Shown here piece after piece: positions 4,958-12,936 of a DNA stretch of 12,936 nucleotides (positions are counted from its first letter, which is position 1; each line of letters begins with the position of its first letter). The notes beneath the pieces were generated by a model. The model was not told the DNA's origin. It did not search any database and saw only the letters and a program-made list of their open reading frames with translations. Made by a program: the position numbers and the translations under genes. Source of the DNA: Flavobacterium psychrophilum (GTDB lineage Bacteria > Bacteroidota > Bacteroidia > Flavobacteriales > Flavobacteriaceae); NCBI GenBank assembly GCA_945866505.1, contig CAMBHH010000098.1, forward strand, positions 1-12,936, in the 5' to 3' direction.

Positions 4958-7777
4958 CTATCTTTTCAAGGAAAAATGCCCTTTTACTTCGGGTATGGTG
5001 TTGTCCAATTTTAAAAGATACCAATAATCATCTGCCGGCAAAGGATTGGTATTGAACTTCCCGTCCCAACTATATTTTGAGGAGTTTAGATTTATTATTA
5101 ATTTTCCGTATCGGTCATAAATCGAAGCACTCCAATTAGGAAAATTTTTCATTCCATTTATTTCCCAAAGGTCATTAAATCCATCATTGTTGGGTGTAAA
5201 GAATTTTGGAAGGGGCAAATGAAAATAGGCCAACGATATTATGCTTGTGCAATTTTGCTGTTTTACAAATATATTGTAAAGGCCAGCATCAACATTTGAA
5301 AATATATTACTAGATTGATAAATGTTTTCATCTAAAGAATACATAAAATCTCCAGCATTTGAAGTGGTTATAATGATGTCATTACCATAAGAAATTACAT
5401 TTTCAATTATTGGTTTTTCTAAAAGGGTTACATTAAAGATTCTTGTTTCAAAAGAACAAACACCAGCGGTAATATCAACGGTAAAAGTTCCCGCACTTTC
5501 AATAGTTATATCCTTTGTAATTGCTCCAGTGCTCCAAGAATAACTTGGATTAGTTATATTTGTTTGCGCTTGTAACGTTAATGTTGAGCCTTCACATAAT
5601 TCTAGATTCTCCGAAGTTATATTCCCTGGTGGAATCCCTGTGTTATCCCATGCACAAGTGGTTGTATTAAAAACCCAGGTATCCCAACAGTTTACTATTG
5701 CTGGCGGCGTAGGTTTGCTTCCTGTAACATCCCAAGAACATGTCGCGTCATTAAAAGTGACTGTTTCCCAACAAAGTAAAGTGGGTTGTATTGGTTGGTT
5801 TCCTGAAACATCCCAAGAACATGTTGAATCATTAAAAGTAGCTGTTTCCCAACATTGCAAAGTAGGCTGTGTTGGTTTGGTTCCTGAAATATCCCAAGAA
5901 CAAGTTCCCGTGTTAAATATCGATGTTTCATAACATTTAGTTGTAGGTTGAGCGGGTTGTGTTCCGTTTTTATCCCAAACGCAAGTTGTCGTATTGAATA
6001 CATATTTATCCCAGCAGTTCACTGATGTTGGTTTGATTGGTTGGTTGCCTGTATTATCCCAAACGCAAGTTGTCGTATTGAATACATAATTATCCCAGCA
6101 GTTCGCTTTTGTTGGTTGGATAGGTTTATTTCCAGTGTTTTCCCAAAGGCAGCTTGTGGTGTTGAAAATATAATTATCCCAGCAGTTCACTTTTGTTGGT
6201 TGGGCAGGTTGCTTTCCAGTGTTTTCCCACAGGCAGGTTGTGGCGTTGAATACATATTTATCCCAGCAGTTCACTTTTGTTGGTTGGATAGGTTTATTTC
6301 CAGTGTTTTCCCAAAGACAGCTTGTGGTGTTGAACACATAATTATCCCAGCAGTTCACTTTTGTTGGTTGGGCGGGTTGGTTGCCTGTATTATCCCAAAC
6401 GCAGGTTGTCGTATTGAATATATAATTATCCCAGCAGTTCACTTTTGTTGGTTGGGCGGGTTGGTTGCCTGTATTATCCCAAACGCAGGTTGTCGTATTG
6501 AACACATAGTTATCCCAGCATTTCACTTTTGTTGGTTGGGTAGGTTGGCTTCCTGTATTATCCCAAAGGCAGGTTGTGGTGTTGAACACATAATTATCCC
6601 AGCAGTTCACTTTCGTTGGTTGGGTGGGTTGCTTTCCAGTGTTTTCCCATAGACAAGTTGTGGTGTTGAACACATAATTATCCCAGCAGTTCACTTTCGT
6701 TGGTTGGGTGGGTTGCTTTCCAGTGTTTTCCCACAGGCAGGTTGTGGTGTTGAACACATAATTATCCCAGCAGTTCACTTTTGTTGGTTGGGTAGGTTGC
6801 TTTCCAGTATTTTCCCAAACGCAGGTTGTCGTATTGAACACATAGTTCTCCCAGCAGTTCACTTTAGTTGGTTGGGCAGGTTGGCTTCCTGTATTATTCC
6901 AAAGGCAGCTTGTTGTGTTGAACACATATTTATCCCAGCAGTTCACTTTCGTTGGTTGGGTGGGTTGCTTTCCAGTGTTTTCCCAAAGACAGGTTGTCGT
7001 ATTGAACACATATTTATCCCAGCAGTTCACTTTTGTTGGTTGGGTAGGTTGCTTTCCAGTATTATCCCAAACGCAGGTTGTGGTGTTGAATACATAATTA
7101 TCCCAGCAGTTTACTTTTGTTGGTTTGACATGTTGGCTTCCTGTATTATTCCACATACAACTAGTAGGATTCAAAACATAGTTATCCCAACAATTTACTA
7201 TTGTTGGTTTAATAGGTGTTATGTCTGCAACCGTAACTGTGACTTTTATAGTATATTGATAACTTAAATAACCCTTAATCACAGGATTGCAACCTGGTGT
7301 ACCGACAGGTATTATATCTATACTAAAATTATCTCCAAAATCTGGAATAATAGTAGAATTGCGAGGGCTGTTTAATGGACTTCCGAAATTAAATGGCGGA
7401 GGGCTTATTTTGGGAGGGTAATTAGGTTCTGCAACCAAATTAGTCGCAGGCAAACACGTAGCTCCGCCAGCGTATGTAGTACAACCATAAAATAAATTGT
7501 AATAGGTTGTAAAATGGGGACAAACATTGTTATTTGAGTAACTTAGAAGACTGATCTCTACCTTTATACCTGTAATTTTTTGACAAGAAGTTGTCCTTGC
7601 TGGTAATGTGAAATCATGGGCATAACCATCGCTATTTGAAGAGGTATTACCTAAACCATTCCAAGCTTTTCTGTCAATGCCTATTTTAGCATCACTTTGG
7701 GTCTGAATCATAACTATCTGGCCAAAGGAGAAATCCGTTTCTAAGATTAAAAATAATACTAAAAGGTACTTAAACAT
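4958..7777 (-). CDS. T9SS-secreted surface protein B with 19 tandem Cys/Trp repeats
   Basis: A 939-residue secreted protein. Residues 1-20 (MFKYLLVLFLILETDFSFGQ) form a signal peptide. Residues 21-190 are a unique, Cys-containing N-terminal region that I do not recognise, including a Pro-rich stretch (NYPPKISPPPFNFGSP). Residues 191-714 are 19 tandem repeats with the core C-W-x(9)-C-x-W and a linker of the NTGxQPxQPTKVN type. An Ig-like PKD/SprB-style module follows (SYSWSTGAITKDITI), then SLDENIYQSSNIF. The C-terminus (about 857-939, FFTPNNDGFNDLW to GHFSLKR) is the type B sorting domain of the type IX secretion system. The protein is therefore expected to be exported through the outer membrane and kept on the surface or released. 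Similar CW..C repeats occur, as far as I recall, in other flavobacterial surface proteins, but I know of no assigned function. Protein A is its C-terminal paralogue. An extended stalk or adhesin is a reasonable inference, not shown. Confidence 0.9.
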   Translation of the reverse strand: MFKYLLVLFLILETDFSFGQIVMIQTQSDAKIGIDRKAWNGLGNTSSNSDGYAHDFTLPARTTSCQKITGIKVEISLLSYSNNNVCPHFTTYYNLFYGCTTYAGGATCLPATNLVAEPNYPPKISPPPFNFGSPLNSPRNSTIIPDFGDNFSIDIIPVGTPGCNPVIKGYLSYQYTIKVTVTVADITPIKPTIVNCWDNYVLNPTSCMWNNTGSQHVKPTKVNCWDNYVFNTTTCVWDNTGKQPTQPTKVNCWDKYVFNTTTCLWENTGKQPTQPTKVNCWDKYVFNTTSCLWNNTGSQPAQPTKVNCWENYVFNTTTCVWENTGKQPTQPTKVNCWDNYVFNTTTCLWENTGKQPTQPTKVNCWDNYVFNTTTCLWENTGKQPTQPTKVNCWDNYVFNTTTCLWDNTGSQPTQPTKVKCWDNYVFNTTTCVWDNTGNQPAQPTKVNCWDNYIFNTTTCVWDNTGNQPAQPTKVNCWDNYVFNTTSCLWENTGNKPIQPTKVNCWDKYVFNATTCLWENTGKQPAQPTKVNCWDNYIFNTTSCLWENTGNKPIQPTKANCWDNYVFNTTTCVWDNTGNQPIKPTSVNCWDKYVFNTTTCVWDKNGTQPAQPTTKCYETSIFNTGTCSWDISGTKPTQPTLQCWETATFNDSTCSWDVSGNQPIQPTLLCWETVTFNDATCSWDVTGSKPTPPAIVNCWDTWVFNTTTCAWDNTGIPPGNITSENLELCEGSTLTLQAQTNITNPSYSWSTGAITKDITIESAGTFTVDITAGVCSFETRIFNVTLLEKPIIENVISYGNDIIITTSNAGDFMYSLDENIYQSSNIFSNVDAGLYNIFVKQQNCTSIISLAYFHLPLPKFFTPNNDGFNDLWEINGMKNFPNWSASIYDRYGKLIINLNSSKYSWDGKFNTNPLPADDYWYLLKLDNTIPEVKGHFSLKR
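5636..7207 (-). repeat. Tandem 84/81-bp repeat array, 19 units, within surface protein B
   Basis: The array codes for 524 residues: 15 units of 28 residues, three of 27, and a last partial unit of 23. Units 2-15 are close variants with the core NCWDNYVFNTTTC followed by xWxNTG and QPTQPTKV. Units 16-18 (nearest the C-terminus) form a second subtype, C[YW]ET..FN...CSWD.[ST]G, and unit 19 returns to the first. Each unit has two Cys ten residues apart and two or more Trp. Neighbouring units can be almost identical in DNA: the two at about 6367-6417 and 6451-6501 match over about 50 bases at an offset of 84. The blocks at 6125-6165 and 6293-6333 match at an offset of 168, that is, two units. This points to recent unequal exchange or conversion. 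Confidence 0.93.
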
Positions 7778-9514: not shown

Positions 9515-12121
9515 TTGTCATCAAAAGAGAAATTGGTCAAGGAAACACCTTTAATGAAGCAATACAACGAAATTAAAAGGAAGTATCCTGATGCCTGTTT
9601 GTTGTTTAGAGTGGGAGATTTTTATGAAACTTTCGGAGAAGATGCAGTTCGTGCTTCCAAAATTCTTGGTATCACATTGACCAAACGTGGCGCAGGATCT
9701 GAGACCGAAACGGCTCTCGCTGGATTTCCACATCATTCTATAAATACCTATTTACCGAAATTGGTCAAAGCGGGGCTTCGGGTGGCGATTTGCGACCAAC
9801 TTGAAGATCCAAAAATGACCAAAACCATCGTGAAACGCGGCGTTACAGAACTAGTAACTCCAGGTGTTTCTATGAATGATGAGGTGTTACAATCGAAGAC
9901 AAATAATTTTTTGGCAGCTATTTATTTTGCCAATAAATCCATTGGTATTTCATTTTTGGACGTTTCTACAGGCGAATTTCTTACTGCGCAAGGTAATGCA
10001 GAATATATTGATAAACTATTGCAGAACTTCAATCCAAGCGAAGTTTTAATTCCAAAAAATAAAAAAACCGATTTCCGAGAAACTTTCGGCGAGGATTATC
10101 ATAGCTTTTATTTGGAAGACTGGATTTACAAAGAAGATTATGCTTTTGAAATCTTGACCAAGCATTTTCAAACGATATCACTCAAAGGTTTTGGAATCGA
10201 AGAATTGCCAGAAGGAATTATTGCTTCTGGAGCGATTTTGTATTATTTATCAGAAACGCAACACAATAAAGTACAACATATCACGGCTATTCAACGCATT
10301 GCAGAAGACGCTTATGTTTGGATGGACAGATTTACGATTCGAAACCTTGAATTGTATCACAGTTATAATCCCAATGCGGTAACGCTTTTAGATGTTATTG
10401 ACAAAACGCTTTCGCCTATGGGTGGTCGTTTATTAAAACGTTGGTTGGCATTGCCATTGAAAGATGCGAATAAGATAAGAAACCGCCATCAAGTAGTTTC
10501 TTATTTGAAAGAAAATCAGGAAGTTTTACAACACATTCAAAAGCAAATAAAACAAATATCTGATTTAGAACGCCTGATTTCAAAAATTGCAGCGGGAAAA
10601 GTTTCGCCGCGGGAAATTGTTTATCTAAAAGAATCCTTGGATGCTATTATTCCAATAAAAACCTTGTCGTTGGCAAGCCCGCAAGAAGCTGTAAAAATCA
10701 TCGGCGACAGCCTGCACAGTTGTGATTTACTGCGCGAAAAAATTAAAACGGTTTTAAACCAAGATGCTCCGGTGGCTATTGCCAAAGGGAATGCCATTGC
10801 CAAAGGAATTAACGAAGAATTAGACGATTTACGGGCAATTTCAACATCTGGAAAAGAATTTCTCGAAGGAATTGAAAAACGGGAATCCGATAGAACAGGT
10901 ATTTCATCCCTGAAAATTTCTTTCAACAATGTTTTTGGATATTATATTGAAGTTCGAAACACGCATAAAGATAAAGTTCCAACGGAATGGATTCGAAAAC
11001 AAACCTTGGTCAATGCTGAACGTTATATCACCGAAGAATTAAAAGAATACGAAACCAAAATCCTTGGTGCCGAAGAAAAAATTCATAAAATAGAAGTTGA
11101 GTTATTCGAGCAATTGGTTAGTTGGATTGCCACTTATATCAAGCCAGTTCAAATGAATGCCAACTTGGTGGCGCAGTTGGATTGTTTATGCTCGTTTACA
11201 CAATTGGCTATAGAAAATAAATACGTTTGTCCAGAACTAGATGATACTTTCGATTTAGATATAAAGAACGGAAGACATCCCGTTATCGAAAAACAATTGC
11301 CTGTTGGAATCCCTTACATTGCTAATGATGTTTTTTTAGACAGAGAAACACAACAGCTGATTATGATTACCGGACCCAATATGTCTGGAAAGTCAGCGAT
11401 TTTGCGTCAAACGGCCTTAATAGTGCTCTTGGCTCAAATGGGAAGTTTTGTTCCGGCTGAGAGCGTGAGAATGGGAATTATTGATAAAATATTCACGAGG
11501 GTAGGTGCGAGCGATAATATTTCGATGGGAGAATCCACTTTTATGGTCGAAATGAATGAAACGGCTTCTATTTTGAATAATATTTCAGATAGAAGTTTGG
11601 TGCTATTAGACGAAATCGGAAGAGGAACGAGCACGTACGACGGTATTTCTATTGCTTGGGCGATTGCCGAGTTTTTACACGAACATCCATCGAAACCTAA
11701 AACGCTTTTCGCGACGCATTATCACGAGTTGAATGAAATGAGTGAATCCTTGCCGAGAATCCAGAATTACAATGTTTCAGTAAAAGAATTGAAAGACACG
11801 GTGCTTTTTATTCGAAAATTGGTAAAAGGAGGAAGCGCCCACAGTTTTGGAATTCACGTGGCGAAAATGGCCGGAATGCCACAAATCGTAATCTTGAAAG
11901 CACAAAAATTGTTGAAGAAATTGGAGAAAGATCATTCTAGTGAAGCCTTGAGCGGTATTAAATCATCTAAAGACGATATGCAAATGAGTTTCTTCAATTT
12001 AGACGATCCTTTGTTAGAAGAAATCAAAGATGAGATTCTTAGTCTCGATATCAACACGATTACACCCATTGAAGCTCTAATGAAACTCAATGAAATAAAG
12101 AGAATGTTAGTTAAAAAATAG
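9515..12121 (+). CDS. mutS: DNA mismatch repair protein MutS
   Basis: An 868-residue MutS, normal length for the family, which binds mismatches as a dimer and uses ATP to signal repair with MutL. The N-terminal mismatch-binding domain carries the Phe-x-Glu wedge in [10 protein letters not shown] (Phe36, Glu38), followed by the conserved [19 protein letters not shown] stretch. The connector, lever and clamp regions run through the middle. The ATPase domain has Walker [10 protein letters not shown] (620-628), the [11 protein letters not shown] block, Walker B and D-loop [11 protein letters not shown] (697-707) and the FATHYHEL switch. The C-terminus has the usual helix-turn-helix interface ([16 protein letters not shown]). 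Walker A ends in GKSA instead of the common GKST. The start chosen is TTG at 9515, because [21 protein letters not shown] resembles other flavobacterial MutS N-termini; the first ATG, at 9554, would remove 13 residues but leave the wedge. Confidence 0.97.
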
Positions 12122-12190
12122 TTCTATTGCCTTTAAAGTTGCAGTTATCAGAAGCTTAGCTTTTGACTATATTTTTTTTACAAAAAACGC

Positions 12191-12220
12191 TTGCGTAATT
12201 GAATTAATGTATTAAATTTG
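12191..12220 (+). promoter_or_regulatory. Promoter of the tRNA-Gly/tRNA-Leu unit
   Basis: A TTG at 12191-12193 and TAAATTTG at 12213-12220 are separated by 19 bases, the arrangement of the Bacteroidota housekeeping promoter (TTG, about 19 bp, TAnnTTTG). The elements sit about 40 bp before tRNA-Gly. No TTTG occurs between the two tRNAs, so this is the only good promoter candidate for both. Confidence 0.7.
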
Positions 12221-12260
12221 CATCCGCAATACGATTAAGTATTACGTTCTTTTTATGAAT

Positions 12261-12333
12261 GCGAAAATAGCTCAGTTGGTAGAGCGCGACCTTGCCAAGG
12301 TCGAGGTCGCGGGTTCGAGCCCCGTTTTTCGCT
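12261..12333 (+). tRNA. tRNA-Gly (anticodon GCC)
   Basis: A complete 73-base cloverleaf without encoded CCA. Acceptor arms GCGAAAA and TTTTCGC pair fully; the D-stem is GCTC/GAGC, the anticodon stem CGACC/GGTCG holds the loop TTGCCAA (anticodon GCC), and the T-arm GCGGG-TTCGAGC-CCCGT closes with one G-T pair. The discriminator base is T. It is followed after 423 bp by tRNA-Leu with no hairpin-plus-T-run terminator between them. Confidence 0.97.
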
Positions 12334-12360
12334 CAAAAGCATACGCTTAGGAGTTGTGAG

Positions 12361-12756
12361 ATCTAATTGATTTTTCAATTGGATTTAATATCAATAAGTA
12401 AAATGCTCGGATGATGTTGTATTTAATTATTTTTTTTCAAAAAATTAGATATAACATAAAAATAGCAAATTAAAAATGCTCGGATGGTGCTTTATTTAAT
12501 TAATTTTTTCAAAAAATAAGATATAACATCAAAATAGCAAATTGAAAATGCGCGGATGGTGCTTTATTTAATTAATTTTTTCAAAAAATTAGATATAATA
12601 TCAAAATAGCATATTAAAAATGCTTGTGTGGTGGGTATTTAATTTATTTTTCTAAGAATTAGATATAACATCAAAATAGCAAACTGAAAATGCTCGGATG
12701 GTGCTTTATTTAATTAATTTTTTCAAAAAATTAGATAAAACATTTAAAAGCAAAAT
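12361..12756 (+). repeat. Tandem ~72-bp repeats, each a tRNA-Leu leader plus the first 12 bases of tRNA-Leu
   Basis: Copies of GCTCGGATGGTG, the exact first 12 bases of the downstream tRNA-Leu, start at 12405 (one mismatch), 12478 (exact), 12550 (one mismatch), 12622 (three mismatches) and 12692 (exact). The real tRNA starts at 12757. The steps are 73, 72, 72, 70 and 65 bp. After those 12 bases each copy continues with CTTTATTTAATTAA-like sequence instead of the tRNA body. It then has an A/T-rich inverted repeat, best as AATTTTTT-C-AAAAAATT, then AGATATAACATCAAAATAGC and AAAAT before the next copy. A sixth, more diverged leader (12361-12404) begins the array and has its own inverted repeat, AATTGA-TTTT-TCAATT at 12365-12380. 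The unit is not a multiple of three, and no frame suggests a protein. Confidence 0.9.
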
Positions 12757-12842
12757 GCTCGGATGGTGAAATTGGTAGACACGCTGGACTTAAAATCCAG
12801 TGAACAGCAATGTTCGTGCGGGTTCAAGTCCCGCTCTGAGTA
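12757..12842 (+). tRNA. tRNA-Leu (anticodon TAA)
   Basis: An 86-base class II tRNA without encoded CCA. Acceptor arms GCTCGGA and TCTGAGT pair with two G-T pairs, one of them the terminal G1-T72. The anticodon arm CTGGA-CTTAAAA-TCCAG gives anticodon TAA (reads UUA/UUG). The long variable arm is TGAACAGCAATGTTCG, with stem GAACA/TGTTC. The T-arm is GCGGG-TTCAAGT-CCCGC, and the discriminator is A as expected for Leu. Its first 12 bases are repeated five times upstream. Confidence 0.97.
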
Positions 12843-12850
12843 CTCTTGAA

Positions 12851-12890
12851 AACCGTAAAGACTTAATTGTTAATTCTTTGCGGTTTTTTT
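12851..12890 (+). terminator. Rho-independent terminator after tRNA-Leu
   Basis: AACCGTAAAGA (12851-12861) pairs with TCTTTGCGGTT (12875-12885) over 11 bp with one G-T pair. The 13-base loop can close further through TTAA/TTAA, and the arm runs into TTTTTTT (12884-12890). It starts eight bases after the tRNA ends and closes the tRNA unit. The last 46 bases of the window hold nothing I recognise. Confidence 0.9.
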
Positions 12891-12936
12891 ATGCCTTGTT
12901 GCCAAACTGTTAAGAAGCATATTTTAACTGACAAAA

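Follow-up and report, generated by a model that had tools for sequence, protein, structure and literature searches.

Arrays of false RNA gene ends joined to a conserved A/T hairpin core in Flavobacterium, probably built by repeated insertion of a short non-coding element

The DNA analyzed in this work (hereafter the window) is a stretch of 12,936 nt from Flavobacterium psychrophilum (contig CAMBHH010000098.1 of assembly GCA_945866505.1). It carries mutS, followed by tRNA-Gly(GCC) and then by tRNA-Leu(UAA). The gap between the two tRNA genes is 422 nt long and consists mostly of a tandem array (Tandem Repeats Finder: 12400–12754, period 72, 5.0 copies). Each unit of the array is composed of a false gene end, which copies the start of the adjacent tRNA-Leu(UAA) gene, and a conserved hairpin core, TTTAATTAATTTTTTCTAAAAATTA. 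The features of the locus are as follows.

9515–12121: MutS, 93% identity to the MutS of F. fryxellicola
12213–12220, plus strand: TAAATTTG, a Bacteroidota-type -7 promoter-like box upstream of tRNA-Gly, found by pattern scan
12261–12334, plus strand: tRNA-Gly(GCC), Rfam agrees
12340–12404, plus strand: a possible older, decayed sixth unit or right arm, consisting of a short A/T hairpin and a leader copy (inferred)
12405–12477, plus strand: unit 1; false end 12405–12416, 1 mismatch; core 12422–12446, 5 mismatches to the 25-nt consensus; leader copy
12478–12549, plus strand: unit 2; false end 12478–12489, exact; core 12495–12519, 2 mismatches
12550–12621, plus strand: unit 3; false end 12550–12561, 1 mismatch; core 12567–12591, 1 mismatch
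12622–12691, plus strand: unit 4; decayed false end 12622–12633, GCTTGTGTGGTG, 3 mismatches; core 12637–12661, 7 mismatches
12692–12756, plus strand: unit 5, adjoining the gene; false end 12692–12703, exact; core 12709–12733, 1 mismatch; leader copy AGCAAAAT
12757–12843, plus strand: tRNA-Leu(UAA), the true gene, Rfam agrees; the false ends copy it as far as base 12 (12768)
12849–12890, plus strand: terminator-like hairpin and T run 3' of tRNA-Leu, seen by eye and not listed by a scan

Thus, the first 12 bases of tRNA-Leu(UAA) are copied upstream of the gene in four clear versions and one decayed version, and the distance from each false end to the next start is 73, 72, 72, 70 and 65 nt. A pattern scan of the window with up to 2 mismatches gave 5 matches, including the real gene and excluding the decayed copy. 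The same scan gave a mean of 0.27 matches in 200 shuffles, none of which reached 5; the false ends are therefore not due to chance. Base 13 differs from tRNA-Leu in all five false ends, as read from the alignment. The original prediction of five tandem false 5' ends of tRNA-Leu, cut off sharply at base 12 and accompanied by copies of the leader, describes real repeats, one of the five being decayed. The A/T hairpin that it placed after each false end is also present, as a conserved part of the unit and not as filler. The array proper starts near 12400 and not at 12361, as had been proposed. The possible sixth unit is based on a 78% repeat family that joins 12377–12416 to 12729–12768, and a stretch like 12340–12404 is also seen by eye in three of the collected loci (L081, L082 and L085).

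Between 11230 and the window's end, TAnnTTTG is matched solely by the TAAATTTG box; we take a box of this type to be a promoter element, and its frequency in the window is no higher than in shuffles. Since the pattern scan revealed no TAnnTTTG box between the two tRNA genes (12335–12756), transcription of tRNA-Leu probably starts upstream of tRNA-Gly and runs through the array. It should be mentioned that the window contains another tandem repeat at 5970–7209 (84 nt, 14.8 copies), which encodes a Cys/Trp-rich repeat of 28 residues and sits in an ORF of 939 aa on the minus strand (4958–7777).

In all 13 loci of the MutS set that hold both tRNAs the gap is 11–21 nt long and contains no array. 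These loci come from 12 named Flavobacterium (L001–L012) and one Flavobacteriaceae MAG (L014), and the array is thus an addition, present in some species and absent from others. When the window array was used as a query, matches were found in 198 of 398 Flavobacterium genomes, which is not a count of arrays, since many of the weaker matches represent the core alone or may be due to chance. A search for the repeats in relatives had been proposed together with the original prediction, and it was positive: 26 of the 30 best loci contain at least one unit in the same gap between tRNA-Gly and tRNA-Leu(UAA). In two of these 26 (L085 and L088) only tRNA-Gly was called, and the contig ends there. The other four of the 30 (L100, L104, L108 and L109) carry their units upstream of tRNA-Leu(CAA) instead, and the false ends there have that gene's own form, GCCCGGATGGC. 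In L086, where tRNA-Leu(UAA) starts with GCTTGGGTGGTG, two of the three units copy this form, and in L098, where the gene starts in the same way, the copy differs by one base. Arrays were found on chromosome-sized contigs of other genomes (L083, 3.10 Mb; L090, 3.85 Mb; L111, 5.88 Mb; L112, 3.67 Mb), and misassembly was therefore rejected as a general cause.

The mutS–tRNA-Gly–tRNA-Leu locus also contains partial tRNA copies that have no A/T core (L001, 5750–5830; L056, 5754–5825; L043, 5793–5929; L010, 6276–6330). They comprise false Gly 5', Leu 5', Gly 3' and Leu 3' ends, each with a GC-rich palindrome as judged by eye. Entire second copies of tRNA-Gly and tRNA-Leu were revealed at the same locus in other species (L011, 5976–6049; L019, 6032–6118).

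The distribution of the core was studied with a 25-nt pattern allowing up to 2 mismatches, the reversed pattern serving as a control. In total, 135 matches were found in 58 of 150 Flavobacterium genomes, and the control gave a single match in the same 150. In a sample of the family the core was present in 11 of 299 genomes, with one match in each, and the control matched in 3; one genome (G061) belongs to both samples. Comparison of the two samples indicates that the core is largely a feature of Flavobacterium. The fetched stretches cover all 135 places, and at 121 of them a real tRNA gene follows the core on its right at a distance of up to 1 kb, with one polarity throughout. The genes are tRNA-Cys (87 places in 44 genomes), tRNA-Ser(GGA) (13 in 3), tRNA-Leu(UAA) (11 in 7), tRNA-Leu(CAA) (6 in 5) and tRNA-Ala(GGC) (4 in 2), the genomes being related and hence not independent samples. 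The remaining 14 places include two with 5S fragments, six at contig ends, all of which show Leu- or Cys-like false ends, and six without an RNA gene. Twenty regions taken at weaker matches of the array contained tRNA-Cys (15), tRNA-Ser(GGA) (2), tRNA-Leu(CAA) (1) or no tRNA (2).

The copied end is the 5' one at the Leu genes and the 3' one at Cys, Ser, Ala and 5S. At tRNA-Cys and tRNA-Ser the core is located downstream of the gene in the reversed direction, and the unit is composed of the core and a copy of the tRNA 3' end, to which a terminator-like hairpin is added at Cys; in the Cys arrays that we read the core lies beyond this hairpin. False copies at tRNA-Cys start at various points, some in the T-arm and some near the anticodon. 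This variation of the break, both between genes and within tRNA-Cys, points to several independent events. The false 5S copies were assigned by alignment to 5S loci, and Rfam called none of them. The copy in L237 matches the 5S gene of its genome, which was located with Rfam, at 110/110 positions across the 3' part and the trailer; the copy in L230 has diverged, and no 5S match was found in that genome.

Several other elements were encountered in these regions. A Flavo-1 RNA (RF01705) lies 3' of the 5S fragments in L230 (401–481) and L237 (865–953). Core-like sequences with no RNA gene nearby were found in L125 (892–917), L215 (1246–1271), L218 (1283–1308), L126 and L203; the left flanks are alike among the first three and between the last two, and these sequences may be unrelated conserved elements. 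In L112 an insertion with two ORFs (1540–2910; 144 and 288 aa, IS3-type transposase-like by eye) interrupts the core of a tRNA-Cys array, and in L128 an ORF of 145 aa (314–751; IS200/IS605-type TnpA-like by eye) is located between tRNA-Cys and the array.

To compare false ends with their genes we used 91 arrays comprising 199 units, with one array per distinct context; units were counted at up to 5 core mismatches and up to 1.3 kb from the gene. From one to five units were present in 88 arrays, and six or seven in three. The false end matched its own gene in at least 10 of 12 positions in 37 of 41 Leu(UAA) units, 11 of 12 Leu(CAA) units, 104 of 124 Cys units, 17 of 18 Ser units and 3 of 4 Ala units. 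In the Leu units no tRNA-Cys, tRNA-Ser or tRNA-Ala end reached 10 of 12, the two Leu genes being outside this test with respect to each other. At Cys and Ser the end of another tRNA often reached this level as well (73 of 124 and 16 of 18 units), because the T-arm is common to many tRNAs; the own end was the better one in 98 of 124 and in all 18 units, respectively. The Ala units showed no preference (own end better in one of four, another end better in one, two tied). Thus, the false ends follow their own gene, clearly at Leu and weakly at Ala.

The arrays also have a direction. In 56 arrays with at least two contiguous units, the false end of the far unit was worse than that of the near one in 32, better in 2 and tied in 22 (sign test, 7e-8), and the core of the near unit had fewer mismatches in 29, more in 6 and an equal number in 21 (sign test, 1e-4). 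With a stricter core limit, which left 52 arrays, the far false end was worse in 25, better in 2 and tied in 25. Units near the gene are therefore better kept. The order in the window array is not clean, its cores having 5, 2, 1, 7 and 1 mismatches from the far to the near unit. A plain tandem repeat offers no reason for fresher units at one edge. The decay of far units could instead reflect exchange of the near units with the real gene, and not age.

We suggest that the array was probably formed by repeated insertions of a short non-coding A/T-hairpin element at set sites inside stable RNA genes. An insertion would break the RNA gene and duplicate everything between the break and a point past the gene end; the gene would remain whole, and a false end would lie across the core from it. 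The restored gene would be a target again; the false end would not, having lost the rest of the gene. New units would thus accrue beside the gene, and older ones would be pushed outward and decay, the order of insertion being reflected in the decay. The break would fall after base 12 at Leu(UAA) and near base 11 at Leu(CAA), with the 5' end copied, and further in at Cys, Ser, Ala and 5S, with the 3' end copied. The core, as the putative moving part, might be mobilized in trans, and a guess at the agent would be GIY-YIG nucleases like those found at other tRNA genes. Insertion of this kind would explain why the copies end abruptly at base 12 and include the leader, why the false ends match their own gene and why the units stand in tandem with one polarity. 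As the whole gene would again be a target, new units would arise next to it, in agreement with the direction observed. Neither a donor or excised copy nor a linked transposase was found, and so we only infer the mobility of the core.

A neutral origin would require no mobile element: the leader and tRNA end would have been duplicated once by template switching at the A/T hairpin and then multiplied by slippage and unequal crossing-over, with exchange with the gene keeping the near units fresh. The copy number does vary from 1 to 7 per array among the 91, long runs of near-identical units occur (L150), and L056 contains a partial duplication of the tRNA-Leu start without the core. Slippage, named in the original prediction as a neutral alternative, may thus partly explain the amplification. 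However, it gives unrelated loci no common core, whereas six RNA genes (two Leu genes, Cys, Ser, Ala and 5S) share one core with one polarity and this core is seldom found beyond Flavobacterium, so that we consider a purely neutral duplication unlikely. Even lower is the probability of another proposed role, that of a regulatory or buffering leader, in which the false ends would bind RNase P as decoys or compete for the 3' acceptor strand, or in which processing would be paced by the hairpins. The probable read-through of the array into tRNA-Leu is consistent with such a leader, and so is part of the folding data. The Leu units for folding, 43 in 33 loci, were collected by a matching rule that missed the outer units of the window; we dropped those with matches below 9/12 or a right arm of at least 40 nt and kept one unit per locus, which gave 32 loci. 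The false end is paired with the right arm in its own predicted hairpin in 30 of these 32 loci, a pairing not equaled by any of 300 composition shuffles in each of two sets. Of the five units in the window, 1, 4 and 5 have folds lower than those of their own shuffles (z of -4.7, -3.6 and -2.5), but 2 and 3 do not (-0.1 and -0.8). Swapping of arms favored the own arm at Leu(CAA) (-8.1 own versus -3.8 swapped) but not at Leu(UAA) (-5.1 versus -8.5). RNAalifold, applied to 27 of the 32 units (L082, L087, L090, L097 and L107 were left out by choice) on a sequence-only alignment, which makes it a weak test, gave three pairs, none of them changed on both sides. Covariation of the Leu hairpin had looked convincing by eye; given the RNAalifold result and the mixed arm swap we claim neither covariation nor selection on this hairpin.

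Moreover, the predicted hairpin would keep the false end from competing, which is the opposite of a decoy. Arrays with the same core are located downstream of Cys, Ser, Ala and 5S and carry 3'-end copies, those Cys arrays that were read lying past the terminator-like hairpin, and the 13 relatives from the MutS set have no array at all; a decoy or leader function at tRNA-Leu is thus highly improbable. The units might alternatively be a domesticated small-RNA gene, by analogy with rrA, rrB and rrF of E. coli, and be processed from tRNA precursors into trans-acting hairpin RNAs. According to the text of PMC8144298, the E. coli repeats that follow 5S are transcribed, processed and bound by Hfq and CsrA, and units of our arrays are likewise found after tRNA and 5S genes. 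This reading is weakened by the decay of copies, by their varying number and by their patchy distribution, and there is very little chance that the analogy extends to the window. Nothing that we found requires a function for the array, and the inserted elements suggested above would have none in the cell.

A parallel series of structures was revealed at other tRNA genes. Its layout, as judged by eye, is a tRNA, a terminator, a GIY-YIG gene, a false tRNA 3' part, often with a palindrome, and a terminator, either single or in tandem. Such loci include tRNA-Pro (L186, L187, L257), tRNA-Met(CAU) (L165, L182, L249), tRNA-Val (L247, L248, L255), tRNA-Arg (L250), tRNA-Asp (L258) and tRNA-Leu (L010, L241); the stretch L246 carries GIY-YIG genes and Pro-like false ends and no whole tRNA. 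Tandem GIY-YIG genes (about 80–110 aa, in steps of about 350–390 nt) are located at tRNAs or tRNA-like ends in L187, L246, L247, L248, L249 and L250; a false tRNA 3' part follows each of them, and a hairpin often replaces its anticodon arm or T-loop. A tRNA lies directly upstream on the same strand for 14 of the 64 GIY-YIG ORFs in the collected loci. In 9 of these 14 the last 16 nt of the tRNA recur (at least 14/16) within 260 nt past the ORF, a ratio that is not a frequency, since the loci were partly picked as tandem-looking and an array may contribute several ORFs. The recurrence is below the 14/16 mark in L165, L247, L255, L258 and L259, and roughly one in two GIY-YIG loci lacks a nearby tRNA.

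Both types of structure meet in one case, L241, where tRNA-Leu(CAA) has a core unit on its 5' side and a GIY-YIG cassette on its 3' side; the false copy of the cassette begins at about base 10, a point near the break seen in the 5' units. No window ORF of at least 55 residues matched a profile of eight tRNA-linked GIY-YIG proteins at 1e-6, and no likeness by eye was seen that would point to an origin of the core from a GIY-YIG gene. In phage T6 the GIY-YIG enzyme SegB, encoded beside tRNA genes, promotes tandem repeats of tRNA-Tyr and segB, according to the text of PMC13096335. On this indirect ground, a GIY-YIG enzyme is a plausible candidate for the core arrays as well. In the combination of a GIY-YIG gene by a tRNA with tandem repeats of the tRNA region, the system described in PMC13096335 resembles L187, L246, L247 and L250. 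The phage repeat, as given there, is 718 bp long and contains tRNA-Tyr and a truncated segB, whereas the units of the window are geneless. To connect SegB-type systems with the window element is a guess.

Among the titles and abstract openings of the open-access literature we found no such family in Flavobacterium, no copies of tRNA 5' ends and no parallel GIY-YIG series. It can be tentatively hypothesized, with more doubt than confidence, that the arrays belong to an undescribed mobility system of Flavobacterium, in which a nuclease cuts tRNA or 5S genes at set positions and the cut receives either a short non-coding element or a GIY-YIG cassette, the 5' or 3' gene end being duplicated; the arrays would then be ordered records of insertion, the youngest unit lying by the gene. 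The shared core, its two orientations, the six RNA genes, the ordered decay and the gene-bearing parallels make the origin of tRNA-linked repeats testable. A partial tRNA end in a Bacteroidota genome is not necessarily a gene, and the arrays are strain markers that may change quickly.

Short non-coding hairpin elements present in many copies within a bacterial group include the Rickettsia palindromic elements, REP and NEMIS. The core element resembles such palindromic repeats and MITEs in being short, non-coding, hairpin-forming and multi-copy in one bacterial group, and the core is itself an imperfect palindrome. We know of no palindromic repeat or MITE that duplicates the end of an RNA gene at each insertion. 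MITEs of DDE transposons have terminal inverted repeats in common with a parent that bears a transposase, and no such parent of the core was noticed. Target duplications of MITEs are short and of fixed length. The stretch duplicated with the core differs between loci, being by eye about 24 nt at Leu, 33 at Ser, 58 at Cys and longer at 5S, and in this it is unlike ordinary target-site duplications. The 3' ends of tRNAs also serve as insertion sites for prophages and integrative elements, which restore the gene end and leave a partial copy on the far side. Such elements measure kilobases and encode an integrase, whereas the core element has about 33–45 nt besides the copied end, carries no gene and is found also at 5' ends and at 5S. 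The window array contains no integrase gene: the units are 65–73 nt long, and no ORF of at least 80 residues is present in 12122–12936.

The closest likeness in plan, as distinct from sequence, is to the tRNA-linked repeats (TLRs) of E. coli, and the comparison with tyrT made in the original prediction pointed in the right direction, since the tyrT repeats belong to them. As described in the text of PMC8144298, TLRs have been known since 1978 and comprise 22 units at ten loci, with one to five units per locus; no function of theirs was known before the data on three members given there. The main text of that paper does not contain the words evolution, insertion, duplication or mobile, and so offers no origin of TLRs with which ours could be compared. 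TLRs, including those of tyrT and rrnA/B/D (PMC8144298), resemble the window array in that one to five units lie by tRNA or rRNA operons and copy the end of a neighboring gene. The same holds for the other arrays: the window array and 121 of the 135 core places are located within 1 kb of a tRNA, two places are at 5S fragments, and the number of units is five in the window and one to five in 88 of the 91 arrays. In a TLR, 18–19 bp equal the 3' end of the upstream tRNA or rRNA, so that the unit is a downstream copy of a 3' end (PMC8144298), whereas the window array lies upstream and repeats the first 12 nt of the gene downstream of it. At Cys, Ser, Ala and 5S, in turn, the arrays repeat the 3' end of the gene that precedes them. 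In plan, the latter arrays look like TLRs, and the window array, which lacks the defining 3'-end copy, appears as their mirror image at the 5' end.
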